A stretch of DNA of 48,487 bases from Nitrospirota bacterium (GCA_013388455.1 JACAFF010000029.1:1-48487); one strand, 5' to 3'; counted from the stretch's first letter, positions 1,041 to 45,904 are shown. Numbers and translations are program-made. The notes: generated from the sequence alone by a model not told the origin.

Positions 1041-1122
1041 GACGAGATTGCTTCGTGGCTAAAGCCCCTTGCAATGACGAATAGAGAGGGTGTCATCGCG
1101 AGCGGAGCGTGGCGATCTCATC
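1041..1122. repeat. Paired palindromic repeat (REP-like, family A)
   Basis: Two inverted arms share this intergenic space. The first reads GAGATTGCTTCG...GCAATGAC (1044-1078). The second reads GTCATCGCGAGCGGAGCGTGG...GATCTC (about 1092-1119). The same arms recur at more than a dozen places in the window, both between genes and inside the giant glycosyltransferase gene. The element lies between the regulator and the HEAT-repeat gene. Confidence 0.85.
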
Positions 1123-2583: not shown

Positions 2584-4596
2584 TCACCCTCTCTTGACAA
2601 CACTTTCAATAAAATTCTCCAGAGCTTTAATGCATTCCATGTCATAATAAATTTTATATTTATTCTCAGCGATCTTATTTGAGATGCTTTTTCTCAATTC
2701 ACAGTCATTGCCAATACGGACAGCTAAATCTATATATTCTTCAAGCGTAGAAGTAATGCATTCTTCTAAACCTATCATTTTCAAGATGGCAGAGCAATCA
2801 CGACTTCTCATCAAATTTCCGGGAAAAGTAACAATTGGTAAATTAAAATTGATGGCTTCAATTGCTGAATTACAGCCAGACCATCCAATAGGATCGAGAA
2901 ACACATCAGCGATTTGATAGAGTGAATTGTATCTATGATTATCAAGAAATGGAAGAAAAGTTATATAATCACTTGCGTGGAGATTTAATCTATCAAATGC
3001 CTTATAAAGCCTGAGTCGTAGTTGTTCGGTAATATATTCACTTTTAGGATGTTCTGAGAACAGGAATCGGCAATTGTTTACACGTTTTGCAATCAAGGGG
3101 AATATCTCATCATACTGTGGTAAAAATTTGTAAAGAGACTGACAGCAGTGATATAGCAAAGAATCATCAGGCAGATTGAAACTTTGTCGATTAATATTTG
3201 TTACTTGCGTTTCTAAAGGTGTTATGTAGGCTGAAAGATTCGGTAGTCGCACAAGTTTTTCAGTGTAATGGGTATCACCATCAGGTGGTTCCATTAGAGC
3301 ACTGCTCAGGAAATAATCAATACTTGGAAGTCCTGTTGTCGTTGGATGACCCCATGAAACGCATTGCACAGGGGCGAGTCTTAGAGATGCCAGCTTTAAA
3401 GATAAAGGATCCATGCCAATTTCTGGATAGATTATAATGTGCAGGTTATCATTGCGAATTATTTGAGATAATTTTTCAAAGGAATTGTTTTTTAGAAATC
3501 TTTTACAGTATTTTGCAGCAGTTTTAGTCTCATCATCATCTTTTGTCCATGTATAGTATCCAAATAGCTCAAAACGTTCCTTATCGATTTTCTCCATCCA
3601 TCCCTTAATAGGAATTTTCCATACAGAATGATTATAGAAATAACCTGATATGAATCCTATACGAATACGTTCTTGAATATCCGGCATTACAGGCTTTTCT
3701 GCAAGCTCAGGATAACGTGAGGACATTATGTTACAAATTAAATCTCCATAAAGTCTCTGGAGTTCGACATCATTCAATCCCTGGTAAGCTAAATAAAAAG
3801 GTTGAATTGTCCCGATCGCTACAGAAGCTTCTTCAATCCGGGAAGAATTTTTTGGGTATATCATATTTTTGAGTTCAATTAATTCGTTTTGATAATTTTT
3901 ACGTGATGAAGATATACTTGATTCATCCTTGTGGATAATAGGAATTTGTGCAATAGAATGTGCAAATCTCGCAATAAAAGAATGAGGCCTTTGTTTGATT
4001 ACTTTGTTGAGTGTGGCTAATGCTTCTTCCTGTTTTCCCTCTTCCATAAGTGCTGTCCCAAGATTAAAAAGGATTTCGGGAGATTCAGGTTTGGAATTTA
4101 GAGCTTTTTTATAATATTTAATAGCCTCTCTAATATTGCCAGTTTCCTGAAAAACAATTGCAAGATTACTATTTGCTTCGGGATGCTCCGCGTTAATTTT
4201 TAAAGCCTCCTGGAAACACTCGATAGCTTTATCAATTTGTATTTCATATTTGAAAAAGATAATGCCAAGATTTACCAATGCATCTGCCATATGTGGATTT
4301 AACTTCAATGCATTTTGGTACGATGATATTGCTTTATCAAAAAATCTTTTGCCCTGATATGCAAGACCAAGATTGTAATATGCATGGGCATCAGATTTTA
4401 TTAGAATTGCTTTTTTTATGTATTCGATTGCTTTGTCATAATTACCGTATTGACAATATAACACTCCGAGGTAATGCAAGGCATAAAAGTTATCCGGTTC
4501 AGAAATTAATAATTCTTGATAAATATTTTCTGCCTCAATGAGTCTGCCTGCTTGATGATACTGGATTGCTTTTTTCAGAACATCGGAAGTTTCCAT
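2584..4596 (-). CDS. TPR - GT41 (O-GlcNAc-transferase/SPINDLY-like) glycosyltransferase, paralogue 1
   Basis: This 670-residue protein has about six TPR units at residues 1-210 (pattern 'YYNLGLAYQGKRFFDKAI'). A GT41-type C-terminal catalytic region spans about 300-665. Family landmarks are HSVWKIPIKGW, IYPEIGMDPLSLKLASLRLAPVQC, GHPTTTGLPSIDYFLSS and FLDPIGWSGCNSAIEAI. GT41 enzymes transfer a sugar from a nucleotide sugar to Ser/Thr of proteins, with the TPRs choosing the substrate; bacterial members are usually cytoplasmic. The paralogues at 8743-10758 and 21932-23848 share the architecture, and this copy is the most diverged (HPTTTG for HPDTTG, SRDCS for QRHSA). No Shine-Dalgarno sequence precedes the ATG; a TATAAT lies 8 bases before it. 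Confidence 0.9.
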   Translation of the reverse strand: METSDVLKKAIQYHQAGRLIEAENIYQELLISEPDNFYALHYLGVLYCQYGNYDKAIEYIKKAILIKSDAHAYYNLGLAYQGKRFFDKAISSYQNALKLNPHMADALVNLGIIFFKYEIQIDKAIECFQEALKINAEHPEANSNLAIVFQETGNIREAIKYYKKALNSKPESPEILFNLGTALMEEGKQEEALATLNKVIKQRPHSFIARFAHSIAQIPIIHKDESSISSSRKNYQNELIELKNMIYPKNSSRIEEASVAIGTIQPFYLAYQGLNDVELQRLYGDLICNIMSSRYPELAEKPVMPDIQERIRIGFISGYFYNHSVWKIPIKGWMEKIDKERFELFGYYTWTKDDDETKTAAKYCKRFLKNNSFEKLSQIIRNDNLHIIIYPEIGMDPLSLKLASLRLAPVQCVSWGHPTTTGLPSIDYFLSSALMEPPDGDTHYTEKLVRLPNLSAYITPLETQVTNINRQSFNLPDDSLLYHCCQSLYKFLPQYDEIFPLIAKRVNNCRFLFSEHPKSEYITEQLRLRLYKAFDRLNLHASDYITFLPFLDNHRYNSLYQIADVFLDPIGWSGCNSAIEAINFNLPIVTFPGNLMRSRDCSAILKMIGLEECITSTLEEYIDLAVRIGNDCELRKSISNKIAENKYKIYYDMECIKALENFIESVVKRG

Positions 4597-4654: not shown

Positions 4655-4700
4655 ACGAGATTGCCACGTCGCCCGCCTTCGGCGGTCTCCTCGCAATGAC
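4655..4700. repeat. Palindromic repeat, family A
   Basis: The sequence reads GAGATTGCCACGTCG...CCTCGCAATGAC with an internal GCCCGCCTTCGGCGG hairpin. It is one arm of the repeat family described at 1041. It lies directly after the 3' end of the FKBP-TPR-glycosyltransferase gene. Confidence 0.8.
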
Positions 4701-7522: not shown

Positions 7523-7654
7523 CCCAAATCCAGTGATAAAAATCGTCATCGTGAGCGGAGCGTGGCGATCTCTCTGTCTGTAATTGCTTCGGGGCTACGC
7601 CACTCGCAATGACACATATAGTAAGGGATTACGTTGCTTATCGCTGGATTTGGG
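7523..7654. mobile_element. MITE-like element with terminal inverted repeats, copy 1
   Basis: This 132-bp non-coding element is bounded by CCCAAATCCAGTGATAA (7523-7539) and its inverted partner TTATCGCTGGATTTGGG (7638-7654), a 16 of 17 match. Inside are two palindromic family-A arms, GTCATCGTGAGCGGAGCGTGG and GCTTCGGGGCTACGCCACTC. A second copy with the same ends is at 45766-45904. It encodes no transposase, and no clear target duplication is visible here. The size and structure suit a miniature element moved in trans. Confidence 0.75.
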
Positions 7655-7671
7655 AATATAATGAAAAGGTC

Positions 7672-8635: not shown

Positions 8636-8720
8636 GAGATTGCTTCGTACCCCGAAATATTTTCGGGGTCTTCGCAATGACAGTCTTTTTTGTCATCGCG
8701 AGCGAAGCGTGGCAATCTCA
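8636..8720. repeat. Paired palindromic repeats, family A
   Basis: Two inverted arms face each other: GAGATTGCTTCG...CTTCGCAATGAC (8636-8671) and GTCATCGCGAGCGAAGCGTGG...CAATCTC (8691-8719). An internal CCCCGAAATATTTTCGGGG hairpin lies in the first arm. They fill the gap between two glycosyltransferase genes and could fold in mRNA. There is no T-run, so I do not call a terminator. Confidence 0.85.
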
Positions 8721-8742: not shown

Positions 8743-10758
8743 ATGATCGAACAGGTTATCGAAAGATATAACTCAGGTAATTTCAAAGAAGCAGAAGAGA
8801 TTTGCAAGGAAATAATAAACACTCAACCACAAAACGCAGATGCCTTTCATTTTCTCGGTCTAATAAATTTTCAACTCAAAAATTATAATGAGGCAATAGA
8901 ATATATTAAGAAGGCTTTAAATATTAACCCTCACTTTGCAGATGCGCACAACAATCTTGGAACAATATATTACAATCTTGGAAAGCTGGATAAAGCGTTT
9001 GAACATTATCAGAAGGCGGTGGAATTAAATCCATACTTTGCAGACGCATATAATAATATCGGCGTCATTTTACAGAGTATTGGTCAATTCCATGAGTCTA
9101 TTTCATGTTTTCAAAAAACCCTCGAATTAGTTCCAGAACATGCACAAGCATATAATAATCTCGGCAATTCTCTGAGAGAAATAGGAGAATTCGAAAAGGC
9201 ACTTGAGTGCTTTAATCATGCAATTTCGATCAAGCCAGACTATCTCCTGGCTTATTATAATAAAGGAAATGTTTTAGTTTATCTTGGCAGAACAGATGAA
9301 GCGATTGTTGCTTATGATGAAGCTTTAAAAATAGCTCCTAATTTTTTTACTGCAAGATGGGCTAAATGTATTTCCCAATTACCTTTTATTTATCCTGATG
9401 AGGCAAGCATTTATGTTTACCGTAAGAGGTATGAAGATGAGCTTTTGAAACTCAGGGATTCGATTTCACTTGAAACGCCTTATGAAATACACATGGCTTC
9501 AGAAGCTGTCGGGAGTCATCAGCCTTTTCTCCTGACATGTCAGGGCTTGAATGACAGAGATTTGCAAAAGCTTTATGGTGAGATCGTATGTAAAATCATG
9601 AGTAAAAGATACCGACAATTTACTGAAATGCCAGTTGCATTTACGAATTTGAATAATGAACAAATGAGAATTGGTATAGTCTCAGCGTTCTTCCATTATC
9701 ATTCTGTCTGGAAAATTCCTTTAAAAGGATGGGTAGAAAATATTGATAAAAATAGATTTAAGCTTTATGGGTATTATACACGAAGGATTTATGATGAAGT
9801 TACTGAGATAGCAAAAAAACATTTTTATAAATTTGTTGAAAATATCTATTCATTTGAGGATTTATGTCAGATCATCCGAGATGACAATTTACATGCTTTA
9901 ATTTATCCAGAAATTGGCATGGATACGATAACGCTGAGGCTTGCTACTTTGAGACTTGCTCCTGTTCAATGCACATCTCTGGGACATCCTGATACCACTG
10001 GGCTTCCGACAATTGATTACTATTTGAGCAGTAAATTGATGGAGCCGTTAGATGGAGATGAACATTACACAGAGAAGTTAATTCGATTGCCAAATTTAGG
10101 ATTTTATTATTCACCAATAGATATTACATCTGAAAATGCAAATCGAGAAATGTTTGGACTAAACTCGGATTCGATTGTATACCTTTGCAGTCATGCCCTA
10201 TTTACATATTTGCCTCAGTATGATGATATTTTCCCTCAGATTGCAAAAGAGGTGTATAACTCTAAGTTCGTATTTATTTCACAATTCGACATAAAGAATT
10301 TCGTCACAGAACAATTTATAATGCGGCTCAAAAAAGCATTTAGTTCTTACAAAAAGGAGTATGAAAAGCATGTTGTGTTTCTTCCACATCTTACCCCCGA
10401 AAGATATTTTTTGCTTAACTCTGTATCTGATATATTTTTAGATACTATAGGTTGGTCTGCCAATAATTCAACCTTTGAAGCTATCAACTGTAATCTTCCT
10501 GTAGTAACATTACCTGGAAAACTTATGAGACAACGTCATTCCGCAGGTATTCTTAGAATGATGGGGTTAACAGAGACCATTGCAAGTTCAGTCGGTGAAT
10601 ATGTTGAGGTTGCAGTTCGTCTGGGAAAGGATAAAAAATGGCGACAACAAATTTCTGAGAAGGTTAATGCAAATAAAAATAGACTTTATAGAGATAAAGA
10701 ATGTATTAAGGCGCTTGAGGATTTCTTAGAAAATGCGGTCAAAAATGCAATTGGATGA
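8743..10758 (+). CDS. TPR - GT41 (O-GlcNAc-transferase/SPINDLY-like) glycosyltransferase, paralogue 2
   Basis: The 671-residue protein carries about six TPRs (residues 1-215; repeated 'ADAYNNIGVILQSIGQFHES') and a GT41 catalytic region (about 300-665). Landmarks are HYHSVWKIPLKGWVENIDK, IYPEIGMDTITLRLATLRLAPVQC, GHPDTTGLPTIDYYLSS and FLDTIGWSANNSTFEAI. It is closest to paralogue 3, sharing SANNSTFEAI and MRQRHSAGIL. The predicted activity is O-glycosylation of protein Ser/Thr from a nucleotide sugar, with substrate choice by the TPR superhelix. The stop codon lies at the edge of a palindromic repeat. No good ribosome-binding site is visible. Confidence 0.9.
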   Translation: MIEQVIERYNSGNFKEAEEICKEIINTQPQNADAFHFLGLINFQLKNYNEAIEYIKKALNINPHFADAHNNLGTIYYNLGKLDKAFEHYQKAVELNPYFADAYNNIGVILQSIGQFHESISCFQKTLELVPEHAQAYNNLGNSLREIGEFEKALECFNHAISIKPDYLLAYYNKGNVLVYLGRTDEAIVAYDEALKIAPNFFTARWAKCISQLPFIYPDEASIYVYRKRYEDELLKLRDSISLETPYEIHMASEAVGSHQPFLLTCQGLNDRDLQKLYGEIVCKIMSKRYRQFTEMPVAFTNLNNEQMRIGIVSAFFHYHSVWKIPLKGWVENIDKNRFKLYGYYTRRIYDEVTEIAKKHFYKFVENIYSFEDLCQIIRDDNLHALIYPEIGMDTITLRLATLRLAPVQCTSLGHPDTTGLPTIDYYLSSKLMEPLDGDEHYTEKLIRLPNLGFYYSPIDITSENANREMFGLNSDSIVYLCSHALFTYLPQYDDIFPQIAKEVYNSKFVFISQFDIKNFVTEQFIMRLKKAFSSYKKEYEKHVVFLPHLTPERYFLLNSVSDIFLDTIGWSANNSTFEAINCNLPVVTLPGKLMRQRHSAGILRMMGLTETIASSVGEYVEVAVRLGKDKKWRQQISEKVNANKNRLYRDKECIKALEDFLENAVKNAIG

Positions 10759-10840
10759 GATTGCTTCGGGACTACGTCCCTCGCGATGACGGTTCTGAGA
10801 TCGTTATTCCTATCCCAAAGGCATGTAGGTTCGCGATGAG
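10757..10840. repeat. Palindromic repeat, family A, abutting a stop codon
   Basis: GAGATTGCTTCGGGACTACGTCCCTCGCGATGAC (10757-10790) overlaps the stop codon of the preceding GT41 gene. It is followed by a degenerate second arm (to about 10840). The insertion may have trimmed or replaced the last codons of the gene. Confidence 0.75.
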
Positions 10841-11343: not shown

Positions 11344-14300
11344 CTAATTTTCTTCTGTCAAAAGTTTTTCACATCTATCAAGCAAAATTGGAAAACGTTC
11401 ATCCTGTGTTCCTGTATCTAAAGCAGTCTCAATTATAGAAATAGCATAATTCAAATTTCCTGCTTTAATCAGAAATTCAGCAAATTCATAAAGATAATTA
11501 TCATAGGTCATTCTTTTTTTTAATAAAGAAAGATACTTTTTGGCATCATCTTTTTTATTTATGCAACAGTATACCAGCGCAAGCATCAACACAACCATTG
11601 GTAATTCTGGATATTTTGATAAAGTGTCTTTTAGAAGAGATATGCATTTTTCTGCTTTCCCGATGCAAATTGAACAGGCTGCGTAAAGAGGTATAAATTC
11701 TCTTCGTTCCTCAGGATTTTTTTCGAGTTTAAGTGCTGTTTCGAGTGAGTCTATAGCCTCTTGAAACTTTGACTGACGGTAGTAACTGTTCGCCAGACCA
11801 AAATATGCCTTTGGAAAATCTGGTTTTACCTCACTCAATTTTTTCCAGTATCCAAGGGCTTCATCAAACCTTTCGAGTTCAGAAGCCTGGACTGCTAATT
11901 CATAAAGTGCAATAAAGTCTTTCTCTCCACGCTCTGATAGTTTTAATTTGCCAAGGATATAATAATCTTCTCCTTTTGTAAAAATCTTATCTTTTTCGAG
12001 TTTTCCGTAATGATGGACAGGAATATCAATAATTATATTTTTAATACCTGCTTTTTGCATTGTCATTTCCACAAACTCATGGACAGGAAATTCAAACCTG
12101 ATATGCGGATTATTAGGAAATATACGAACTTTGTCACTCGGAAACCAGCCTGATCCTGCTTCTTGTTTGATATAACTACCATCATTCGGTCTCCATCCGA
12201 TAGTAGACACAGGCAGGACATAATTTCTCGATGTGATAGTAAATCCAGCAGATTTGTAAGCTGGAAGAGACAGTAATTTTCTTAAAACATCCTGATCAAA
12301 AGGTGCGATAACCTCATCAGCATCGAGCACAAGTATCCAATCTCCTGATGCTTTTGATATCGAATAATTTCTCGCTTCTGAAAAGTCACCTGTCCATGCA
12401 AAATCAAATACCTTTGCACCAAATGCCTTGGCTATGTTTTTTGTTCTGTCAGTAGAACCTGTGTCAACAACGATCATCTCATCAACAAGAGGCTTTATAC
12501 TATGCAGACATTTGCCTATATATTTTTCTTCGTTTTTGACAATCATGCATAAAGATATAGTAGGTGAGTAACCGGAGATTACTTCGCCGCTTCGCTCCTC
12601 GCAATGACCCCCCTTTAATTCCTCCCTAACTAAGTCTTTCGGTCCTATTTTATTCCTTATCCCGAGAGCAATAGAAAGTGTATCATCATCTATTCCAAAA
12701 GCTACCATCGCATCTTCATAAATTTCCATGGCTTCTTCATATTTCTCTTGTTGCAAGAGAAGATCAACAAGCACGTATTTCAGTCTTCTATTAGATGGAT
12801 AAAGGTCTATTGCTTCTTCAAATATTTTTTCAGCTCTTTCCTGTTGTGAAAGTGAAACAGCAACAGCGTGATAATTAATTGCAACATTTTCAACTGTTGG
12901 TGATAGGATAAAAGCTCGCTCGAAAAGATTAATTGCTTCTTCTTTATAATTTTTATACCATTTAATTGCACCTAAATTTGCGTATGCTTCTCCATAACTT
13001 CTGTCGAGATCGATTGCTTTAGTAAAAAACTTTTCTGCTTCATCAAATAATCCTTTGTTATAGTAAATAAGACCTTTTAGGTTCCAGGCTTTCGCATATT
13101 TATTATCTAAATTGATAGCTTCATCTGCATATTTTTCTGCTTTATCGTAAATGTTAATGCCGTTTTTACAGATGCTGGCAAGTTCAAACCATCTTGCGTC
13201 TTTTTTATGATTTGCTGACATTTTTTCAAGAATATCGTATGCTTCAATATATTTTCCATTTTCTGTCATATACATAACGAGAGCAAAATGTAGTCGTTCA
13301 TCAAAAGGGGAATATTTCAATCCTTCATAAATAGTTTGAATAGCATTGTTTTTTTGTCCTTGCTGTGCGAGTTCATCAGCATAGCGTAATGAATTTAAAG
13401 TAATAAGTTTTTTCCTTGTTTCTTCATCAACATCGTTTGCGCTCCATTTATCAATGAAATGTTTTCTGTCAGCAGAAAGTATTTTGTTATAGGCAATGGT
13501 GTCTTCTCTGATCTTTACCACATTTATTTTATCAGCTTGAACTATCTTATGGACAACAATATCCCCTGCTATTAAAGATCTGTAATTATTTAAAGAAGCC
13601 CTCAGGCAGTAATCATCAAGTGTATATTCGGGTGTTTGGAACTGTTCATCAAAAAGTCCATTCTTTTCTAATAATTCACGTTTGATTAAAAAACATTCAC
13701 CAATTAATTTCTTTTGTTCTACATATCGATATCTATTTTTCTGTCTAAAAGATAATGCGAATTCATCAAGTCCGATTAAGCCATATGGAGTAATTTTTTC
13801 TTCGTCCTTTTGACTAAACGACGAGATTGCTTCTTTGCTTCGCTCCTCGCAATGACCACTCTTTGATTCCTCCCTTATTGCTTCTTTCCCACTCTCCACT
13901 AACCACTTACCACTCACCACTGTATTTACCCCCTGCGGTCCTTCAACATTCGTCATCATAGGACCCACCAGAGCAATATCAGGATTACTCATTGCACACT
14001 CAAGCAATCCCGTAAGCCAGCCGTCTGTGACAATCACATCGTCATTGATTAGTACAATATAGTCACCTGATGATTTATTTATGCCATTGTTAGCAGCCTT
14101 AGCATAGTTGAGGTTACTTTGAGGTTTCGATTCCCCCTCACCCTTGCCCTCTCCAGTTAGGGGAGAGGGGATTCCCCTCTTGAGAGGGGTGCAGGGGTGT
14201 GTTTCCCCTCTTGAGAGGGGTGCAGGGGTGTGTTCCTCTTCTTTGCCGAGGGGTTCCCATTCCAATCCCCTCCCTTGAGGGGAGAGTGAAGTCTCCTTTG

Positions 14301-17300
14301 GAACTATCACAATCTCATGCGGCTCAAGAGTTCTTCTCTTTATACTTTCAATGCATTTATTTGAATTATCCGAATTATCCGAAGCGAGAACTACAACAGA
14401 TACCTTTGATTTGCTTTCATTAAGCCTTTTTATCATATAAAGGGTAGAGAGAAGCTGTTCAGATTTTTTATCTACACTTCCTATCTCGATTGCGGACTCA
14501 AGAAGAGATATAGCAGAATCAATTTGCCCGAAGCTTGTCAATGTATTTGCATAATGAGAAATGAAATTTTTGTAGTCAAAATTTAATATTTTTAATTTTT
14601 CAATAATTTGTTGTGCGTTTATTTTATTACGTAAAGAGAAATATCCAAGAGCTAAAAGGGCGAGTGCCTTAAGGTGTTCTGGATTTTCTTTAATAAATTT
14701 CTCAAGCCTTGAAACTGCCAGAGCAGATTCCCCTAAGTAAAGCTCACATGAGGCAGCCTGTATTACAGCTTCTTTTAATTCAGAATCGAGCTCTAATGCC
14801 TTAATGTATGAGGAAAGGGCTTCATTAAATTTACAAAGATTGAAATGATTGTTGCCTTTACTCAGATAGGCCCTTCCAAAATCAGGATTCAAATCTAAAA
14901 CTTTTTCCAGATATTCTAAAGCCTCTTCAAATTTTCCAAGACTTGAAGCATGAACAGCAAGCTCATGTAATGCTCTAAAGTCCGAATTTTTATCCTCGAA
15001 AACCTTCTTTTTAGCCATCTCATAATATATTTGTGCCTTTGCATTTTCTCTTTCACGGTTGAGTGTTCCATAGTGATGAACTGGAATATCAGAACTTTCG
15101 ATTTTTATGCCATTTTTTATAAGAGAAGGCTCTATTCTTTCGTGAATGGCAAAGTCAAACTTGATGCCAGGTTTATTTGGAAATAATCTAACCTTTTCCC
15201 CAGGAAACCATCCTGTTCCTGCTTCTTCGGAATAATTTCCATCATTTGGCTTCCAATCAATATTATTCAGTTCCATTATATAGTTACGTGTAGTAAAGGA
15301 ATAGGCGACTAATTTCGTGGATTCCGAGGTTCCATGATACGCAGGTTTCGTTTCGTCATCGCGAGCGGAACGTAGCAATCTCGCTTTTTCTTCTTTTCCC
15401 TTTACTAATTCTTTAAGCCTCTCATGATCCTTCGGCGATATCACTTCATCAGCATCAAGGATAAGTATCCAATCACCTGTAGCCTTAGAGAGTGAAAAAT
15501 TACGAGCTTCAGAAAAGTTATCATTCCATCTAAAATCGAAAACTTTAGCGCCGAATTCTTTTGCAATCTCTTTTGTCCTATCAGTAGAGCCTGTATCTAC
15601 TATGATTATTTCATTAACCAAACCTCTAACACTCAAAAGACTATGCCCAATATTTTCCTCCTCATTTTTAACAATCATACAGAGAGAAATGGTTGCTTTT
15701 GCTGTGTCATCGAGAGCGAAGCGTGGCGATCTCATCCTTTCATCAGCACTCAGCTTCCTTCTACATTCCTCAAGAAGTGTTTGTATTTCTTCAGTTACAT
15801 AATTCCCCTCCATCGCAGCTTCAACGAGTTTATTTGCATAAATTAGTTGTCCACTTTTGATTAATGTCGATGCGAAACTTGTAAAAAATCTCGAAGCATC
15901 AAAATTTGTTTCATCCAACTTTTTAGCATAAATAAAGCCTTCTTTTTTTCTGTCAGTGCAAAAATAAGCTGCTGAGATTAGACCAAGTGCAGGAGGATAG
16001 GAAGGTTCTTTTTTAAGTAGTCTTTCAAGCAATTTAATTGCTGTATCACAATTGCCTGAACAAAATTCAAACTTTGATAGTAAAATCAAAGCATCTTGGC
16101 AATCCGGTTCAATAGCTAAGGCAGTTTTTATGGCAGTAATAGCATTTTCGTACATCCCAAGTTCAAAATATGAGATACCAATGCCAATATATGCTTTTGT
16201 AAAATCGGGTTTAAGCTTTGCAAGTTGTTTCCAGTATTCTAAGGCTTCTTTATGATGCCCGATTTCTGAAGTTTGAACTGCAATTTCATAAAGTGGGGCA
16301 AAATCCTTCCATTGGTTCGCTGTGAGCTTTTTCTTTCCAAGTTCGTAATAATCTAATTTTTTTGAACTTTGCTTTTCGATATTAAGTTTGCCATAGTGAT
16401 GTATAGGAATGTCGCACTTTATTATCTCATATCCAGCTTGCAATAAAGAATATTCCACTAATTCATGTACTGGAGACTCAAAGCGAATACGGCTATCGTT
16501 TGGGAAAAGCCTTACCTTTTTGCTCGGCACCCATCCAGTTCCAGCCTCTTCTTCAAGATATTGCCCATCATTTGCAGTCCACTCCATACTGACGTTATTT
16601 TTATAATTTCTGGTTGTAAAGGAATAGGCGACTAATTTCGTGGATTCCGAGGTTCCATGATACGCAGGTTTCGTTTCGTCATCGCCGACACTTTTAAATT
16701 CGTCATCACGAGCATCTTCTTTATTAGTCATTGCTAACCCGAAGGGCATGGCAATCTCGTCTTTTTCTTCTTTTCCCTTTACTAATTCTTTAAGCCTCTC
16801 ATGATCCTTTGGCGATATCACCTCATCAGCATCAAGGATAAGTATCCAATCACCTGTAGCCTTTGATAGCGAAAAGTTTCTTGCTGCTGAGAAATCATCT
16901 GTCCATTTAAAATCAAATACCTTTGCACCAAAGGCACCAGCAATATACTTAGTCCTGTCAGTAGAACCTGTATCAACAACTATTATTTCATCAGCAAGAG
17001 AACCGACTTTGCTGAGACAATTTACGAGATTACTCTCTTCATTTTTTACAATCATACATAAAGAAATAGTTGATTGGGTTTGTTGCGTTTCTTGAGTTTG
17101 TTGTGTTTTTCGAGGTTTCTTAATTTTTTTCTTTTTTCCAACTTTAGCCTTAAGTTTGCCCTTTGCTTTAATCATATCTCCTTCATTACTGGTCATCGCA
17201 AGCGAAGCGTGGCGATCTCGTTGTTTATTATTGTTAGCATCCCACCCTATGACAATCTCTTTTGGTCCTATCTCATGTCTTACCTTCAGGGCAAACGAGA

Positions 17301-20300
17301 GTGTTTCATCATCAATTCCGCAAGTGCGTAAAGCCTCTTGAAGGACATCCATAGCTTCGTGTTTTTTCCCCTGTTTCAAAAGAAGTTCGGCAAATGAATA
17401 GCGCAATTTTTTATGTGAAGGGTATATGTCTACGGCTTCACCCATTATTTTTTCAGCGTTATCTAATTTTTGGAGAGTAACTGCTGAATCAAAAAATTTA
17501 TCGATTGTCTCATTATGTGCTGGATTTAAAATAAATGCCTTTTCATATAGTGTGAAAGCTTCTTCTTCTTTGCCCTCATCCCATTTTAACTGACCGAGAT
17601 TTAAGTAAGGCTCGCTATAACTTCTGTCAGACTCAATAGCTTGATAGAAGAAATTTTCTGCATCACGGAAATTTTCTTTTTTAAGTGCTATTAATCCCTT
17701 TAAGTTTAGAGCTCTTGAAGCTGTTTTATTTAACTCAAGTGCATTGTTTGCAATTTTTTCAGCATCATCTAATTGATTCATTAAAACTTTACAATATCCA
17801 ATTAGAGCAAGCCTGTCAGCATTATCTTTTAGCGATTCGGGCATGTTTTCAAGTATATTAATGGCCTCGGTTAATCTATTCTGTTCTATTAAAATTTCTA
17901 CAAATGTGAAGTAATAATTATTTTCATCTGGTTGCAATTCCTTAACAGCAGAAAGCACTTGTATAGCTTCAGAATATTTACCTTTTTGTCTTAACTCATT
18001 TGAAGCTGAAATCGAATTTAGAACCACCATTTTTTTACCGAGTAGAGTCGAAGGATGAAGATTATTCCATTTATCAAAAAAGAGTTTGGATATTTTAGGG
18101 AGCGAAGAGCCTATTTTACCGCCCCGTCCTGCCAGAGTTCTATCTCGATGAGAATAGACAAAAACGTCTCCAGCAATAATATGCCTGTATCCTTCAACCG
18201 CTGACCTCAGACAATAATCATTATCTGCAAAGTCAGGGATTTCGAGTCTTTCATCCATAAAACCGATTTTCTTCGGCAAATCTCTTCTGAATAACATGCA
18301 GAATCCGTTTAGGTTTACTGTCTCGATCCGTCGATGCCGATTCCGTTTCCTGAAAGCCCCGGCAAAAGAGTGAAGGTTGTCATTGCGAGCACGCGAAGGG
18401 TGCGTGGCAATCTTGTCTTTATATGCTTCTTTTCCACTCTCCACTAACCACTTACCACTCACCACTGTATTTACCCTCTGCGGCCTATCTACATTTACCG
18501 TCATCGGAGCGACAATGCCAACATCCGGTGAACTATTCAAATGTTCCAGCATACTTGATAACCATCCTTCGGTAACAATCACATCATCGTTTAGAATAAC
18601 GACATACTCACCCTTTGCTTCAGCAATGCCTTTATTGAATGCTTCGGGGTAAGTGAGTTTGCTATGAGAGATTGCTTCGTCGCTACGCTCCTCGCAATGA
18701 CGAGGAGGGGAGGTGTCATTGCAAGCACCCGAAGGGTGCGTGACAATCGCGGCCTTCACGTTTCCTACAATACGAGTGCTTGCATCTTTTTTTACAATTT
18801 CCTCTAACCCTTGTAGATGTCCATGAGAAACTTCAACAGGCACTAAGATAATTTCATGCGGTTCAGGGGTATGCTTCTTGATGCTTTCAAGACATTTGCT
18901 GAGATAAGTTGCATCTTTAGAAATAAAAATAATGATCGAATTTAAACTTTTTTTATATTGAACTGGATAAGCAATTTTATCTTCATCTAAAGAAATTCTC
19001 TGCTTTTCTTCTTTTTTAAAGCTTTGTATATTAGATTTTCGCAAAAAATCTCTGTCAAAGGAAGAAACCTGCACCGGTTCTTTTAATAAAATTTCATCTC
19101 GCATTTTATTCAGAATATCTTTTATCGGTTTATATGGTCTATAGTCGCCAGTTTTTTTAGTCAGTTCTTCAACCTTTTTTAAACCGCACTCAATGTCATC
19201 TAATGTAGCGAGGTATTTTTGAATATATTTCTGTCGAATCTGCATATCTTCTTGAACGCGTGTCGACTGATCTCTATGTTCTGCACTTTGTGGTGAAAAG
19301 AGGTATAACCCAAGAAATTCGGGAATATGCAACATTTCTGTTCCTTCAGCGATTCGAAGCCAGAATTCCCAGTCACCTGAGGATGTAAAAGATTCATCAA
19401 AGTATCCATATTTTTCGTGTAAAGATTTGCGCCACATGGGTTGTGGACCTACGAAACAACCGAGTGTGAGAAATTCTCTGCTGTAATCAAGCCAACGGTA
19501 GGCACCTATAGGAGTGTGATTTACGAATGTTTCATTCTCTTTTGCAGTAATTATGACATCTGCATATACAAGACCAATATCAGGTGACCCATCAAGAATA
19601 GATGCCATATGTTCAAGAGCATCTTTTCGATGTCTATCGTCGGCGTTAGCATTTGTAATATATTTTCCTCTGGCAGCCTTAATTCCACGATTCCATGCTT
19701 TATAAATTGTTTCACGCTCTTCAGTGCGGATATATACAATATTCTTGTAATTTTTTTGAAATTCCTCTACGATTGATTTTTCATTTTGCTGTGATCCGCT
19801 ATCTACGACAATTATTTCAAGTTCTCCTTTTTGATAAAGCGTTTGGTTCACAAGATCTTCAAGGCAGCCACTTATGAACCTCTCTGAGTTATAAGTGGAA
19901 ACTATTGCTGAAACCTTGATCCTTTTATCCTGCTGAATATCTTCAAAAGCATTAGACTCTGAGACTGTAGAGACTATGTCCAGATTTTTCAAAGCCTGCA
20001 CTATTTCTTCATCATCTGGATTTTTTTCGAGATAGGATGAATAGAGGTTCTTTACAGAATCAATCTGTTCCAGAGAAGTCAATACCTCTCCGCATTTTAA
20101 AACTATATTCCTGTCAGAAGGGTTAATTTCTAATGCTTGAGTAAGATAGTCAATGGCTCTGTCAACATCTCCCTTTTCCCACAAATCTGATCCGAGCTTT
20201 AGTGAAAGTTCAGCCTTAAGAGCAAGGAGTTCCATAGAATCATGATCCTGATTTAAAGCATCTGTAATGGCACGTTCAGCCTCATCAAGATTTCCTGAGT

Positions 20301-20337
20301 CGATTAATTGTTTGATATTTTGGACAGCGTTCTCCAT
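11344..20337 (-). CDS. Giant mosaic TPR / six-GT2-domain glycosyltransferase (2997 aa)
   Basis: One uninterrupted frame encodes alternating blocks. They are TPR (1-115), GT2-1 (about 140-370; NANADDRHR), GT2-2 (about 463-728; ILNDDVIV), TPR (745-1020), GT2-3 (about 1090-1315; LILDADEVI), TPR, GT2-4 (about 1549-1757; LILDADEVI), TPR, GT2-5 (about 1979-2265; LINDDVIV), TPR (2300-2560), GT2-6 (about 2594-2779; LVLDADEVI) and TPR to the end. Domains 3, 4 and 6 share ISLCMIVKNEE and VVDTGSTDRTK; domains 2 and 5 share a second type. GT2 enzymes transfer sugars from nucleotide sugars, and the Asp-rich motifs bind the metal and donor. No membrane segment is seen, so it is likely cytoplasmic. About 0.5 kb of the gene consists of interspersed repeats read in frame. 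No ribosome-binding site precedes the ATG. I infer sequential assembly of a glycan, or glycosylation of proteins. Confidence 0.88.
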   Translation of the reverse strand: MENAVQNIKQLIDSGNLDEAERAITDALNQDHDSMELLALKAELSLKLGSDLWEKGDVDRAIDYLTQALEINPSDRNIVLKCGEVLTSLEQIDSVKNLYSSYLEKNPDDEEIVQALKNLDIVSTVSESNAFEDIQQDKRIKVSAIVSTYNSERFISGCLEDLVNQTLYQKGELEIIVVDSGSQQNEKSIVEEFQKNYKNIVYIRTEERETIYKAWNRGIKAARGKYITNANADDRHRKDALEHMASILDGSPDIGLVYADVIITAKENETFVNHTPIGAYRWLDYSREFLTLGCFVGPQPMWRKSLHEKYGYFDESFTSSGDWEFWLRIAEGTEMLHIPEFLGLYLFSPQSAEHRDQSTRVQEDMQIRQKYIQKYLATLDDIECGLKKVEELTKKTGDYRPYKPIKDILNKMRDEILLKEPVQVSSFDRDFLRKSNIQSFKKEEKQRISLDEDKIAYPVQYKKSLNSIIIFISKDATYLSKCLESIKKHTPEPHEIILVPVEVSHGHLQGLEEIVKKDASTRIVGNVKAAIVTHPSGACNDTSPPRHCEERSDEAISHSKLTYPEAFNKGIAEAKGEYVVILNDDVIVTEGWLSSMLEHLNSSPDVGIVAPMTVNVDRPQRVNTVVSGKWLVESGKEAYKDKIATHPSRARNDNLHSFAGAFRKRNRHRRIETVNLNGFCMLFRRDLPKKIGFMDERLEIPDFADNDYCLRSAVEGYRHIIAGDVFVYSHRDRTLAGRGGKIGSSLPKISKLFFDKWNNLHPSTLLGKKMVVLNSISASNELRQKGKYSEAIQVLSAVKELQPDENNYYFTFVEILIEQNRLTEAINILENMPESLKDNADRLALIGYCKVLMNQLDDAEKIANNALELNKTASRALNLKGLIALKKENFRDAENFFYQAIESDRSYSEPYLNLGQLKWDEGKEEEAFTLYEKAFILNPAHNETIDKFFDSAVTLQKLDNAEKIMGEAVDIYPSHKKLRYSFAELLLKQGKKHEAMDVLQEALRTCGIDDETLSFALKVRHEIGPKEIVIGWDANNNKQRDRHASLAMTSNEGDMIKAKGKLKAKVGKKKKIKKPRKTQQTQETQQTQSTISLCMIVKNEESNLVNCLSKVGSLADEIIVVDTGSTDRTKYIAGAFGAKVFDFKWTDDFSAARNFSLSKATGDWILILDADEVISPKDHERLKELVKGKEEKDEIAMPFGLAMTNKEDARDDEFKSVGDDETKPAYHGTSESTKLVAYSFTTRNYKNNVSMEWTANDGQYLEEEAGTGWVPSKKVRLFPNDSRIRFESPVHELVEYSLLQAGYEIIKCDIPIHHYGKLNIEKQSSKKLDYYELGKKKLTANQWKDFAPLYEIAVQTSEIGHHKEALEYWKQLAKLKPDFTKAYIGIGISYFELGMYENAITAIKTALAIEPDCQDALILLSKFEFCSGNCDTAIKLLERLLKKEPSYPPALGLISAAYFCTDRKKEGFIYAKKLDETNFDASRFFTSFASTLIKSGQLIYANKLVEAAMEGNYVTEEIQTLLEECRRKLSADERMRSPRFALDDTAKATISLCMIVKNEEENIGHSLLSVRGLVNEIIIVDTGSTDRTKEIAKEFGAKVFDFRWNDNFSEARNFSLSKATGDWILILDADEVISPKDHERLKELVKGKEEKARLLRSARDDETKPAYHGTSESTKLVAYSFTTRNYIMELNNIDWKPNDGNYSEEAGTGWFPGEKVRLFPNKPGIKFDFAIHERIEPSLIKNGIKIESSDIPVHHYGTLNRERENAKAQIYYEMAKKKVFEDKNSDFRALHELAVHASSLGKFEEALEYLEKVLDLNPDFGRAYLSKGNNHFNLCKFNEALSSYIKALELDSELKEAVIQAASCELYLGESALAVSRLEKFIKENPEHLKALALLALGYFSLRNKINAQQIIEKLKILNFDYKNFISHYANTLTSFGQIDSAISLLESAIEIGSVDKKSEQLLSTLYMIKRLNESKSKVSVVVLASDNSDNSNKCIESIKRRTLEPHEIVIVPKETSLSPQGRGLEWEPLGKEEEHTPAPLSRGETHPCTPLKRGIPSPLTGEGKGEGESKPQSNLNYAKAANNGINKSSGDYIVLINDDVIVTDGWLTGLLECAMSNPDIALVGPMMTNVEGPQGVNTVVSGKWLVESGKEAIREESKSGHCEERSKEAISSFSQKDEEKITPYGLIGLDEFALSFRQKNRYRYVEQKKLIGECFLIKRELLEKNGLFDEQFQTPEYTLDDYCLRASLNNYRSLIAGDIVVHKIVQADKINVVKIREDTIAYNKILSADRKHFIDKWSANDVDEETRKKLITLNSLRYADELAQQGQKNNAIQTIYEGLKYSPFDERLHFALVMYMTENGKYIEAYDILEKMSANHKKDARWFELASICKNGINIYDKAEKYADEAINLDNKYAKAWNLKGLIYYNKGLFDEAEKFFTKAIDLDRSYGEAYANLGAIKWYKNYKEEAINLFERAFILSPTVENVAINYHAVAVSLSQQERAEKIFEEAIDLYPSNRRLKYVLVDLLLQQEKYEEAMEIYEDAMVAFGIDDDTLSIALGIRNKIGPKDLVREELKGGHCEERSGEVISGYSPTISLCMIVKNEEKYIGKCLHSIKPLVDEMIVVDTGSTDRTKNIAKAFGAKVFDFAWTGDFSEARNYSISKASGDWILVLDADEVIAPFDQDVLRKLLSLPAYKSAGFTITSRNYVLPVSTIGWRPNDGSYIKQEAGSGWFPSDKVRIFPNNPHIRFEFPVHEFVEMTMQKAGIKNIIIDIPVHHYGKLEKDKIFTKGEDYYILGKLKLSERGEKDFIALYELAVQASELERFDEALGYWKKLSEVKPDFPKAYFGLANSYYRQSKFQEAIDSLETALKLEKNPEERREFIPLYAACSICIGKAEKCISLLKDTLSKYPELPMVVLMLALVYCCINKKDDAKKYLSLLKKRMTYDNYLYEFAEFLIKAGNLNYAISIIETALDTGTQDERFPILLDRCEKLLTEEN
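12575..12608. repeat. Family-A palindromic repeat inside the giant gene (before GT2-6)
   Basis: GAGATTACTTCGCCGCTTCGCTCCTCGCAATGAC is read by the minus-strand gene as HCEERSGEVIS (near residue 2580). It sits directly before GT2-6 (TISLCMIVKNEE). Confidence 0.85.
13823..13856. repeat. Family-A palindromic repeat inside the giant gene (GT2-5)
   Basis: GAGATTGCTTCTTTGCTTCGCTCCTCGCAATGAC is translated as HCEERSKEAIS, near residue 2166. It lies in GT2-5 just after the family-B segment. Confidence 0.85.
13881..13930. repeat. Family-B repeat inside the giant gene, copy 1 (GT2-5)
   Basis: A C/A/T-rich stretch (CCACTCTCCACTAACCACTT followed by ACCACTCACCACTG) is read as VVSGKWLVESGKEA. The same DNA and peptide occur at 18425-18475 at the equivalent position of GT2-2. 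Confidence 0.8.
14131..14286. repeat. Family-C G/C-rich repeat cluster inside the giant gene (GT2-5)
   Basis: This about 156-bp block contains two adjacent 30-31-bp copies of a CCCCTCTTGAGAGGGG palindrome followed by TGCAGGGGTGTG (14172-14231). It also has CCCTCACCCTTGCCCTCTCC and a closing CCCTTGAGGGGAGAG. It is read in frame as a Pro/Gly/Glu-rich insert (HTPAPLSRGE, then IPSPLTGEGKGEGE) directly before the NDDV motif of GT2-5. Its G/C content and codon use are unlike the surrounding gene. Confidence 0.85.
15293..15486. repeat. Long near-identical block shared by GT2-3 and GT2-4 (copy in GT2-4)
   Basis: Positions 15293-15362 are identical over 70 bp to 16616-16685, and 15384-15486 match 16761-16863 with two substitutions. 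The rest of the two modules is clearly diverged, so these segments were recently duplicated or converted. Confidence 0.85.
15355..15382. repeat. Family-A palindromic repeat inside the giant gene (GT2-4)
   Basis: GTCATCGCGAGCGGAACGTAG...CAATCTC, in the orientation opposite to 13823, is read as ARLLRSARDDE (near residue 1655) after the DADEVISPKD motif. Confidence 0.82.
15706..15733. repeat. Family-A palindromic repeat inside the giant gene (before GT2-4)
   Basis: GTCATCGAGAGCGAAGCGTGG...CGATCTC is read as MRSPRFALDD (near residue 1539), immediately before the TISLCMIVKNEE start of GT2-4. Confidence 0.82.
16616..16863. repeat. Long near-identical block shared by GT2-3 and GT2-4 (copy in GT2-3)
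   Basis: This is the partner of 15293-15486. The two near-identical stretches are separated here by about 75 bp of repeat material (16686-16760), against about 21 bp in the other copy. Confidence 0.85.
16678..16758. repeat. Cluster of family-A repeat fragments inside the giant gene (GT2-3)
   Basis: Three GTCATYGC/GTCATCAC starts (16678, about 16702 and 16727) are followed by one complete arm (16727-16758). Translated, they give DEIAMPFGLAMTNKEDARDD, a stretch with no counterpart in GT2-6. Confidence 0.75.
17192..17219. repeat. Family-A palindromic repeat inside the giant gene (before GT2-3)
   Basis: GTCATCGCAAGCGAAGCGTGG...CGATCTC is read as RDRHASLAMT (near residue 1043). It lies upstream of a Lys-rich linker that leads into GT2-3. 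Confidence 0.82.
18379..18413. repeat. Family-A palindromic repeat inside the giant gene (GT2-2)
   Basis: GTCATTGCGAGCACGCGAAGGG...GGCAATCTT is read as KIATHPSRARNDN (near residue 646). It directly follows the family-B segment, as in GT2-5 but in the other orientation. Confidence 0.82.
18425..18475. repeat. Family-B repeat inside the giant gene, copy 2 (GT2-2)
   Basis: The same CCACTCTCCACTAACCACTT-type stretch as 13881-13930 is again read as VVSGKWLVESGKEA (near residue 632), after VNVDRPQRVNT. Confidence 0.8.
18668..18748. repeat. Paired family-A repeats inside the giant gene (GT2-2)
   Basis: Two inverted arms (18668-18701 and 18715-18748) are translated as HCEERSDEAIS and IVTHPSGACND (about residues 530-557). 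They lie directly before the segment leading to the NDDV motif of GT2-2, the same place where family C is inserted in GT2-5. Confidence 0.88.
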
Positions 20338-20492: not shown

Positions 20493-21191
20493 TTAGTTCT
20501 TTTTTATTTTGTCAAAATTCAATATATCCATATACTCCCATTCCCTGTATGCCATTACATATGTGCTTAATTTGCTTGCATATTCGATAACATTCTCAGG
20601 GAATGTAAGGCTTGCAAGGATTAAGATAAGTTTCTTGCCTTTATATTCCGGGAAGAATGCAAAGAAATCTTTTGACTTTTCTATAAATTTATCGACATGC
20701 TCTATTTTCGGGCTTGATTTAACCTCTATCATAAATACTTTGTCTTTACATGTCAGGAGCACGTCTATTTCATAATATTTTCCATCTATTTTTTTAAGTA
20801 TGTTGTCTGATTTAAATACGGGTTCACAATTGAAATAATTTTCTATTACAGGTCTTGAAGCAGGTGATATTATGTCCTCTACAAGTGTTCCAAGTTTATT
20901 TGATATTTCACCCCATTTCTTGTTCATGTCTTTACGGTCTTGCCTCATCTCTTCTTTGAAGGCTTTCATCTCTTCTTTAAAATCTTTCATTTCGTTTTTA
21001 AAATCTTTCATTTCGTTTTTAAAATCTTTCATTTCGTTTTTGAAATCTTTCATTTCGTCTTTGAAATCTCTAAGTTCTGCTTCTGTCCTCATCTGTGAGT
21101 TATAGAGTTTATTGAACTCTATACCAACACTTTTTATAAATTCCTGCAAAGTTATCTCGAGCTTATCGATTCTCTCTTCGGTTGTCTTCAT
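20493..21191 (-). CDS. Coiled-coil protein with a PD-(D/E)XK-like C-terminal domain (DUF3782-like)
   Basis: The 232-residue protein has a long N-terminal coiled coil (about 1-105). It includes five 7-residue units of the type MKDFKNE encoded by 21-bp tandem repeats. A C-terminal domain follows (about 110-225) with EIDVLLTCKDKVFMIEVKSS, the D...ExK core of restriction-endonuclease-like folds. This layout matches DUF3782-type proteins common in cyanobacteria, archaea and Nitrospirota, whose function is unknown to me. It may be a nuclease or a nuclease-derived binding protein. It starts with ATG and has no signal peptide. It faces the AbiEii-like gene divergently. Confidence 0.72.
   Translation of the reverse strand: MKTTEERIDKLEITLQEFIKSVGIEFNKLYNSQMRTEAELRDFKDEMKDFKNEMKDFKNEMKDFKNEMKDFKEEMKAFKEEMRQDRKDMNKKWGEISNKLGTLVEDIISPASRPVIENYFNCEPVFKSDNILKKIDGKYYEIDVLLTCKDKVFMIEVKSSPKIEHVDKFIEKSKDFFAFFPEYKGKKLILILASLTFPENVIEYASKLSTYVMAYREWEYMDILNFDKIKKN
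20963..21067. repeat. 21-bp tandem repeat, five units, coding for coiled-coil heptads
   Basis: The unit is CTTTCATTTCGTTTTTAAAAT on the plus strand (units at 20963, 20984, 21005, 21026 and 21047). The second and third are identical; the others differ at a few bases. Copy-number change by slippage would add or remove whole heptads without a frameshift. Confidence 0.9.
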
Positions 21192-21931: not shown

Positions 21932-23848
21932 ATGAATATAAATAAAGAAATTCAATCAGCTTTTGAAAACTATCAATCTGGAAATTTAAAGGAAGCAGAA
22001 AGAATTTGTAGAAAAATACTTATAGAACAACCTGACAACATTGATGTTCTCAGACTACTCGGTGCAATTTATTACCAAATAAAAGATTATACCTCTGCGA
22101 AATATTATTTTAGAGAGGCAATACAGATTAATCATCATGATGCGATCTCTTATTATAATTTAGGAATCTTAATGCATGAGGAAGGTCATCTCGAAGAAGC
22201 AATAAGCTACTATGTAAAAGCAATTCAACTAAATTCTAATATTGCAGAAATAAATTATAATCTTGGAGTTGCTTATCAGGAAAAAGAAGAATTTGACGAA
22301 GCTGTATCTTGCTTTCAAAAAACTTTAAGTCTTAACCCTCGATATGCGGATGCATATTATAATTTGGGAACTATTTGGAAACAAAGAGGGCTGTTGAATG
22401 AGGCAATCGCTTTTTATGATCAAGCACTTTTTTATGCGCCAAATTATGCATTGCCACTCTGGGCTCGATGCATGTCACAGTTACCTGAAATATATCACAA
22501 TGAAGAACAAATTCAAGCTTGCAGGGGAAAATATTATAACGAGTTAATAAAATTACAAAATAATATACCACTTAAATCGCCTCAGGATATTGATATTGCT
22601 GCAAGGTCTGTAGGCAGTCAGACGCCTTTTTTACTTGCGTGTCAAGGATTAAACAATCGTGAACTGCAATCAATTTATGGAAACATTGTCTGCAAAATAA
22701 TGGGGTTAAGATATCCCCAATTTGCAAGATGTACTGATAAGCCTCGATATGTGCATGGAGAAAAACTTAGGGTTGGCATAATATCAAGTTTCTTTTATTG
22801 GCATTCAGTCTGGAAGATACCTTTAAGAGGATGGGTTGAAAATATAGACAGAAAAAGGTTTAGTCTTTACGGATACTATACTGGAAAAGTTAGAGAGAAA
22901 GTTACAGAAGATGCTGAGCAGTATTTCACAAATTTTGTCCAGGGTATATACTCTATTGAAGAACTATGCCAAATTATCCGCAATGACAATCTTCACGTAA
23001 TAATATATCCAGAGATTGGAATGGATCCATTGATTGTCAGACTCGCAGCACTAAAGTTGGCTCCAGTTCAATGTGTTTCTCTGGGGCATCCTGATACTTC
23101 TGGTTTTCCAACTATCGATTATTACCTCAGCAGTGATTTGATGGAGCCTTCTGATGCTGATGAGCATTATACTGAAAGATTGATTCGTTTGCCGAATCTT
23201 GGTTTTTATTACATACCTTTTGAATTTTCTACTGTAAATATAAATCGTCAAACTTTTGGATTAAGTAAAGACTCAGTTTTGTATTTATGCAGTCATTCTT
23301 TATTTACATATCTTCCACAATACGATATGGTTTTCCCTATGATTGCTAAAAAGGTGAGGAATTGTAAGTTTCTGTTTATTTGCAATAAAAGTGATCTTAT
23401 AACAAAACAGTTTCGATTGCGTCTTTCTCAGATATTTAATCAATTTGGTTTAAATGCAGATGATTTTGTTGTTTTTCTTCCGCGTCTAAATCAGGAACAA
23501 TATTATGGGCTTAATAGTATTTCTGACATATTTCTTGACAGTATTGGCTGGTCTGCAAACAATTCGACTTTCGAAGCAATAGCATGTAATTTACCTGTGG
23601 TAACATTCCCCGGGAGTCTAATGCGCCAAAGACATTGCGCAGCCATACTGACCATGATGCAGATGCAAGAGACAATTTCTAAATCAGTTGATGAATATGT
23701 TGAAATAGCTGTAAGTCTCGGAAACAATATAGAATTGAGAAAAAATTTAGCCGATAGGATAAAAGAAAAAAAGCATCTAATTTATTATGACAGAACATGT
23801 ATAACTGCGCTTGAGGATTTTCTTGTTTCAGTAGTAGAAGAAAATTAA
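21932..23848 (+). CDS. TPR - GT41 (O-GlcNAc-transferase/SPINDLY-like) glycosyltransferase, paralogue 3
   Basis: The 638-residue protein has about five TPRs (residues 1-180), one fewer than paralogue 2. The GT41 region (about 270-632) shows FYWHSVWKIPLRGWVENIDR, IYPEIGMDPLIVRLAALKLAPVQC, GHPDTSGFPTIDYYLSS and FLDSIGWSANNSTFEAI. The start matches paralogues 1 and 2 in alignment (MNINKEIQSAFENYQSGNL). A perfect AAGGAGG (21896-21902) is too far upstream for the ATG but lies eight bases before an in-frame ATT (21911), so a seven-residue longer form from a rare start is possible. The predicted role is protein O-glycosylation in the cytoplasm. Confidence 0.9.
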   Translation: MNINKEIQSAFENYQSGNLKEAERICRKILIEQPDNIDVLRLLGAIYYQIKDYTSAKYYFREAIQINHHDAISYYNLGILMHEEGHLEEAISYYVKAIQLNSNIAEINYNLGVAYQEKEEFDEAVSCFQKTLSLNPRYADAYYNLGTIWKQRGLLNEAIAFYDQALFYAPNYALPLWARCMSQLPEIYHNEEQIQACRGKYYNELIKLQNNIPLKSPQDIDIAARSVGSQTPFLLACQGLNNRELQSIYGNIVCKIMGLRYPQFARCTDKPRYVHGEKLRVGIISSFFYWHSVWKIPLRGWVENIDRKRFSLYGYYTGKVREKVTEDAEQYFTNFVQGIYSIEELCQIIRNDNLHVIIYPEIGMDPLIVRLAALKLAPVQCVSLGHPDTSGFPTIDYYLSSDLMEPSDADEHYTERLIRLPNLGFYYIPFEFSTVNINRQTFGLSKDSVLYLCSHSLFTYLPQYDMVFPMIAKKVRNCKFLFICNKSDLITKQFRLRLSQIFNQFGLNADDFVVFLPRLNQEQYYGLNSISDIFLDSIGWSANNSTFEAIACNLPVVTFPGSLMRQRHCAAILTMMQMQETISKSVDEYVEIAVSLGNNIELRKNLADRIKEKKHLIYYDRTCITALEDFLVSVVEEN

Positions 23849-45601: not shown

Positions 45602-45770
45602 CAGTATCCCGATAATAGCAATGACATCGTATGCTATGGCAGGTGATAAAGAAAGGCTTTTGTCCGCTGGGTGTAAAGGCTATATCGAGAAACCTATTGA
45701 CCCTGATTAGGTCATATCCCAGATAAGGCAATTGACAGGTGAAACAGCATTAAGATATACATATACCTAA
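45579..45770 (+). pseudogene. Response-regulator receiver remnant (C-terminal half)
   Basis: In the frame that starts at 45579 the DNA encodes [20 protein letters not shown], then AGDKERLLSAGCKGYIEKP and IDPD. This is the second half of a CheY-like receiver with the switch Thr and conserved Lys. A TAG at 45708 interrupts it, and QIRQLTGETA follows. The first half, with the phosphoacceptor Asp, is absent. Its upstream end overlaps the last codons of ftsH. Its tail, GGTGAAACAGCATTAAGATAT, matches the junction before the intact kinase gene at 47041. Confidence 0.75.
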
Positions 45771-45904
45771 ATCCAGCGATAAGCATAACAAATGCTGATT
45801 CAGACAGTCATTGCGAGCACCTGAAAGGTGCGTGGCAATCTCCTTGAAGAAGTTCAGATTGCTTCGTTTCTCTCGCAATGACAATCTTTATAGCTGGATT
45901 TGGG
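45766..45904. mobile_element. MITE-like element with terminal inverted repeats, copy 2
   Basis: It is bounded by CCTAAATCCAGCGATAA (45766-45782) and TTATAGCTGGATTTGGG (45888-45904), which pair at 15 of 17 positions. It carries two inner palindromic family-A arms, GTCATTGCGAGCACC...GCAATCTC and CAGATTGCTTCG...CTCGCAATGAC. ATATA flanks both sides and may be a target duplication. It matches the copy at 7523-7654. The stretch after it, 45905-46043, is purine-rich; I see no gene there. Confidence 0.78.

Follow-up and report, generated by a model that had tools for sequence, protein, structure and literature searches.

The stretch of DNA analysed here, hereafter the window, is the whole of contig C29 (48,487 nucleotides; GCA_013388455.1, JACAFF010000029.1:1-48487) from the genome of a Nitrospirota bacterium, which amounts to 2.1 Mb in 44 contigs and is 99.4% complete. 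It carries on its minus strand a giant gene of 2997 codons without a stop, inside which lie nine copies and one half copy of a short palindromic repeat, the A unit; both orientations and three reading phases are represented. The encoded protein shows glycosyltransferase family 2 (GT2) domain matches in six stretches and tetratricopeptide repeats (TPRs) in many, and is built from TPRs and two recurring GT2 module types, referred to as Z (with the motif SLCMIVKNEE) and Y (with NDDV). The best solved relatives of the SLCMIVKNEE module are GmaR (E = 3e-31) and SunS (E = 1e-14); unlike GmaR-like and SunS-like enzymes, several GT2 modules and TPRs are here chained in one protein of about 3000 residues. 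AlphaFold models of the two module types, made from 2-3 sequences, reached mean confidence (pLDDT) values of 47.6 and 37.2, too poor for placing the inserts, and an Rfam scan of the window returned tRNAs only.

The A unit resembles a repetitive extragenic palindrome (REP) of the form GTCATTGCGAG...GCAATCTC, spans 28-47 bp with the head NGTCATTGCGAG and the tail GCAATCTC, and often occurs as inverted pairs. A fixed 28-mer consensus with up to three mismatches matched the window six times, compared with no match in 100 shuffles, and a looser scan found 20 units, against zero when the window sequence was reversed. With the strict pattern GTCATYGCRAGN{4,30}GYRATCTC, 25 copies were detected in the whole genome (control, 0), of which 11 lie on C29 (five of them in the giant gene). 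A second GT-TPR gene, on contig C7, holds two more, and the gene for Cas6 holds one. The two genes with GT modules make up 0.6% of the genome and hold 7 of the 25 strict copies, where 0.14 would be expected by length. Another apparently genic copy, on contig C22 (134206), was set aside, as it is probably upstream of the true start of a GspJ-like open reading frame (ORF): it precedes the methylation motif of that ORF and sits beside the end of a miniature inverted-repeat transposable element (MITE).

A units also occur between genes at six places in the window, frequently as inverted pairs, and the intergenic positions listed in an earlier note on this DNA proved real (at about 1044, 4657, 7545, 8636, 10757 and 45807). 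Most of them adjoin the giant gene at 1-11 kb, and one pair lies at 45.8 kb. Three dimers are joined head to head (two intergenic ones and the in-gene pair at 18668-18750) and two tail to tail (7545-7613 and 45807-45882). RNA folding of these five pairs gave z-scores from -2.1 to -7.6; the two units of an intergenic pair fold on each other, and those of the in-gene pair form separate hairpins. The note had also described at least nine such arms within the single frame; our scan located nine units there, and the peptides that it quoted are all present in the translation (Table 1).

Table 1. Repeats, blocks and tracts in the window, with the gene that hosts the in-gene copies
Position	Strand	Feature	Peptide or sequence	Site or remark
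1044-1119	.	Head-to-head A dimer (1044-1078 minus, 1092-1119 plus)		Intergenic
4657-4700	-	A unit with long inner hairpin		Intergenic
7523-7655	.	MITE-like element around tail-to-tail A dimer	Terminal inverted repeats CCCAAATCCAGYGATAA	
8636-8719	.	Head-to-head A dimer (8636-8681 minus, 8692-8719 plus)		Intergenic; strong hairpin, z -5.9
10757-10790	-	A unit		End of ORF 8743-10758
11344-20337	-	Giant GT2-TPR protein, 2997 aa		Host of inserts; open frame and domain matches
12575-12608	-	A unit, gene strand	GHCEERSGEVIS	Linker before third SLCMIVKNEE module (Z3)
13823-13856	-	A unit	GHCEERSKEAIS	Y2, second NDDV-type module
13879-13926	-	C block, copy 2	7-nt periodic NTVVSGKWLVESGKEA	Y2
14128-14286	-	B block, composite	CCCCTCTC..GAGAGGGG; LSPQGRG..SPLTGEGKGEGES	Y1, second NDDV-type module
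15293-15487	-	Near-identity tract around insert		Module Z2 partner
15355-15382	+	A unit, antisense to gene	ARLLRSARDD	Loop after DxD, second SLCMIVKNEE module
15706-15733	+	A unit	MRSPRFALDD	Linker before second SLCMIVKNEE module
16616-16864	-	Near-identity tract around insert		Module Z1 partner
16702-16713	+	Half A unit, head only	GTCATCACGAGC	
16727-16758	+	A unit	EIAMPFGLAMT	Loop after DxD, first SLCMIVKNEE module
17192-17219	+	A unit	RDRHASLAMT	Linker before first SLCMIVKNEE module
18379-18414	+	A unit	KIATHPSRARND	Y2, first NDDV-type module
18424-18471	-	C block, copy 1		Y2
18668-18701	-	A unit, half of head-to-head dimer	RHCEERSDEAIS	Y1, first NDDV-type module
18715-18750	+	A unit, other half of dimer	AIVTHPSGACND	Y1
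45765-45904	.	Second MITE-like element, tail-to-tail A dimer (45807-45842 plus, 45855-45882 minus)		z -7.6

Modules of the giant gene and the C7 gene were aligned with those of relatives belonging to other genera within the family and order. Opposite the palindromes, the sites are cleanly empty in the modules of at least four other genera, so that the orthologues lacking inserts that the earlier note had proposed to look for do exist; one example is RLKELINKK/QNVAYSITTRNY (L062), compared with RLKELVKGKEEKARLLRSARDDETKPAYHGTSESTKLVAYSFTTRNY in the giant gene. The frame is open across the nine units, with conserved GT motifs on both sides of them. Two giant orthologues carry A units of their own, with 16 in G002 (2484 aa) and four in G006 (1584 aa, ended by the end of its contig), and the C7 gene has two. 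No A unit was found in 12 other GT frames from relatives, apart from one weak match in one of these frames, or in a short GT paralogue of this genome. We also considered an assembly or binning artefact: the draft is fragmented and repeats commonly cause misassembly, yet the units differ from one another, no stop interrupts the frame, and two other genera, assembled independently, show the same picture, which makes an artefact extremely improbable.

All 31 units fall into four classes of site, two at the Z modules (the preceding linker and the loop that follows the DxD helix) and two in the Y module, Y1 and Y2. In G006 the second Z-type module reads SVCMIVKNEE, and its two units were placed by eye, one in the linker and one in the loop. 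When the sites were defined by anchor motifs, 9 of 9 units lay in about 10% of the length of the giant gene and 16 of 16 in about 16% of that of G002. Orientation varies within a class: the linker units before Z1 and Z2 are antisense to the gene and the one before Z3 is sense, and of the two Y2 copies one is antisense and the other sense. At Y1 the two modules differ, one having an A dimer and the other a B block, which is a single G+C-rich composite with internal near-copies; B-like sequences occur elsewhere in the genome too. Among the 31 units, the forward phases are HCEE (10) and VIAR (3), and the reverse phases AMT (10) and ND (8). None lies in the reverse phase that bears a TGA stop; this follows from the open frame and is not separate evidence.

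Because orientation, phase or repeat family varies at one and the same site, sites have been filled more than once, and on these alignments we favour repeated entry at permissive sites. Rickettsia is known to have palindromic elements inserted in frame (Ogata et al. 2000, 2002, as cited in PMC10969869), and for the Rickettsia palindromic elements (RPEs) RPE-4, RPE-6 and RPE-7 the same gene sites carry different RPE groups in different species (PMC3767692). The genome paper on R. japonica leaves insertion hotspots and one old insertion open as explanations and favours the latter for these three groups (PMC3767692). Applied here, a single ancestral insertion per site would have been inherited and then have diverged beyond recognition or been lost. 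That preference for the RPEs speaks for such a history, as does the fact that the units of a site can change (Z1, Z2); against it, one site can hold opposite orientations and different phases, different families occupy it (A or B at Y1, A or another type in Cas6), and several genera have empty sites. We therefore regard a single old insertion per site as quite improbable.

The modules have also exchanged sequence around the inserts. Blocks of DNA compared between Z1 and Z2 are mostly 45-70% identical, with about 65% or less at a distance from the insert, and become almost identical over 195-250 bp at the insert in the loop, where successive blocks match at 58/60, 22/26 and 36/40 positions. Within this tract Z1 and Z2 hold different A units in different phases, with the frame restored in both, and thus units turn over after a tract has been shared. 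A comparable tract lies at the same loop in G002. Gene conversion is the simplest reading of the aligned tracts, and a recent exchange with later replacement of the unit would give an identical picture. Hence the in-gene copies are not all separate insertions, at least one pair being common to two modules through gene conversion or a similar exchange. The C block, 48 bp long, has two copies, both in Y modules; as there is no further copy in the genome, it does not count as a dispersed repeat here, and sharing between the two Y modules is its best explanation.

Such exchange raises the possibility that true insertions were few and that most of the spread within the gene was due to recombination or conversion between its modules. 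The near-identity tracts, which in both this genome (G000) and G002 have an insert at their centre, and the confinement of the C block to two NDDV modules speak for this. Nevertheless, orientation, phase and sequence vary among the units before Z1, Z2 and Z3 and among those at Y2, all of which lack long identical flanks, and the C7 gene, G006 and Cas6 have units of their own; spread mainly from within the gene is accordingly unlikely as the overall account. One step further, palindromes at module junctions might act as exchange points that seed short conversion tracts between GT modules, a suggestion to which we give little credence. If true, a selfish repeat would now be part of a module-shuffling mechanism for glycosylation, diversifying and rearranging the giant enzyme.

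The second kind of host gene encodes Cas6 (C18:14481-15476; L108:4482-5477; PF10040, E 3e-20), which in this genome contains an in-frame A unit of 47 bp immediately before the C-terminal domain. Among the orthologues compared (54-75% identity), G010 has an A unit in the same loop in a different phase, G004 and G014 have another repeat type there (NPPLGKGGEGGF and relatives), and the remaining ones have no such repeat in that loop. In a different loop, the Cas6 of G005 carries an in-frame CTGTCATTCCTGCGAAAGCAGGAATCCAG, a palindrome of the structure TGTC-ATTCCTGC-GAAA-GCAGGAAT-CCA that fits the published description of CGTC-1. The process therefore extends beyond a single gene and beyond a single element family. 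The earlier note's picture of a process concentrated in one modular gene was right as far as the nine units go, and has to be widened to the C7 GT gene, Cas6 and the giant GTs of two other genera. Viewed across genera (L108, L144, L145, L146 and L148), Cas6 shows in-frame palindromic repeats of at least three types, mostly in the one loop before the C-terminal domain.

We next compared the A unit with known palindromic elements; a text search of papers for the repeat sequence gave no informative match. Copies of CGTC- and GTAG-tagged REPs inside ORFs have been listed for several species (Di Nocera et al. 2013, PMC3733652). The A unit shares with CGTC REPs the [C/T]GTC tag (by definition terminal and unpaired, CGTC or else TGTC or CCTC; GTC is preceded by C in 27 and by T in 18 of 58 strict units), a stem that starts with AT (ATTGC/GCAAT), inverted dimers and intragenic copies. 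CGTC REPs have a stem of 8-9 bp and a loop of 4-5 nt (PMC3733652) and end in an unpaired CCA, whereas the A unit has 5 conserved bp, a length of 28-47 nt with a variable inner hairpin, and the tail CTC. Dimers of CGTC REPs are mostly head to head; of the five A dimers in the window, three are of this kind and two are tail to tail. Since stem and loop lengths and the CCA tail differ, we term A units CGTC-REP-like and do not count them as members. They resemble RPE-4, RPE-6 and RPE-7 as short palindromes in frame within ORFs and in the motif ATGAC, which these RPEs have at the unit end and which the head GTCAT of the A unit gives on the other strand; in contrast to RPEs, they are not from Rickettsia, measure mostly 28-47 bp, are concentrated in one modular gene and its paralogues, and show empty sites, multiple phases and conversion tracts, and we do not class them as RPEs. 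The in-gene inserts and the intergenic copies are of one DNA family, the inserts being read in different phases, and the analogy with Rickettsia drawn in the earlier note is supported.

Unlike GTAG REPs, which are mobilised by REP-associated tyrosine transposases (RAYTs) and flank a Y1 transposase gene, A units have no GTAG tag. We rejected a RAYT as the A-unit mobiliser in the case of the single intact Y1_Tnp gene of the genome (C17:84559; L069:4461-5210): this RAYT-like gene is flanked by ACAGGGACACATCCCATTTTC repeats and perfect inverted repeats AAACAGGGACACATCCCATTTTC, which are unrelated to A units, and no A unit lies within 1 kb of it. The two tail-to-tail A pairs of the window each sit in a roughly 130-bp element bounded by terminal inverted repeats CCAAATCCAGCGATAA. 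We call it MITE-like, MITEs (see the review PMC10969869) being defined by such repeats together with a target-site duplication. With two mismatches allowed, 41 such arms were counted in the genome and none in the control, with about nine close convergent pairs 52-126 bp apart; these outer arms are absent from the units inside the giant gene. No transposase with matching ends was found. Many members of this family of about 130 bp carry a tail-to-tail A pair, and its arms are also present in the genomes of four other genera.

Taken together, we consider it about 80% probable that mobile REP-like palindromes have repeatedly been tolerated in frame at a few sites of the GT2-TPR gene and were then copied between its modules. 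Transposition would come first: short REP-like palindromes may spread in these genomes, with most copies surviving only between genes. The multi-module gene tolerates copies in the linkers before Z modules, in the Z loop after the DxD helix and in the two Y loops, and insertions that keep the frame and avoid the stop-bearing phase would be kept as extra peptide, under selection for tolerance and not for function. An insert together with 100-250 bp around it may then be copied between paralogous modules by gene conversion, and turnover at a site brings in different units, orientations, phases and families. The open frame suggests that the inserts are translated.

Several points weigh against this account. 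Neither transposition nor translation was observed. In every orthologue the linkers vary in their inner parts, which leaves the exact insertion boundaries uncertain, and no target-site duplication was established, the nearest relatives being other genera at 43-61% protein identity. The binomial P of 8e-10 for the clustering of the nine units is a guide only, as we drew the sites knowing the data, and units within a cluster do not count as independent.

The inserted peptides or hairpins might instead have been co-opted, as a flexible linker, in the regulation of a long mRNA or as junctions for module exchange, and be kept by selection. The recurrence at module junctions in three genera, the preference for the acidic HCEERSDEAIS phase (10 of 13 forward units) and the location of conversion tracts at inserts would fit such a role. 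However, proteins of this kind are free of inserts in several genera, unrelated peptides occur at one site, and tolerance would give the same pattern, which makes co-option doubtful. On the wording of the earlier note, that the repeats are used as protein-coding sequence, the data bear out tolerance in frame; a function of the peptides is not supported, and the phrase was too strong.

In G002, a single 61-kb contig, that of the giant gene, has 33 of the 48 strict units; on it, genic units occur only in the giant gene and the others are intergenic or in short doubtful frames. A dense run of about 20 A units, both genic and intergenic, was also noted upstream of the giant GT gene of G002 (contig C20, about 22-40 kb; L101), in a region that looks hydrogenase-like by eye. 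Around the giant gene of the window lie three more genes with TPR and GT41 domains (Glyco_transf_41, OGT-like; 2584-4596, 8743-10758 and 21932-23848), which suggests a protein glycosylation cluster. A 21-nt tandem repeat at 20924-21091, within an ORF on the minus strand (20493-21191), encodes a seven-residue repeat that is probably a coiled coil, and an ORF near the contig end (46364-47014) encodes an AbiEii-like nucleotidyltransferase (type IV toxin-antitoxin family).

The insertion of palindromes in frame was already known, from Rickettsia RPEs and from CGTC and GTAG REPs. What is new is the recurrence at homologous loops across modules and genera, the local concentration and the conversion tracts. 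The giant gene, with inserts in at least three bacterial genera, clearly adds a new example to a process that Rickettsia has mainly been known for. The question raised there, of repeated hits or one old insertion (PMC3767692), becomes directly testable here, because the modules, the second gene and the orthologues of three genera provide filled and empty versions of the sites. These findings indicate that short mobile repeats can go on adding new peptide to a working enzyme.

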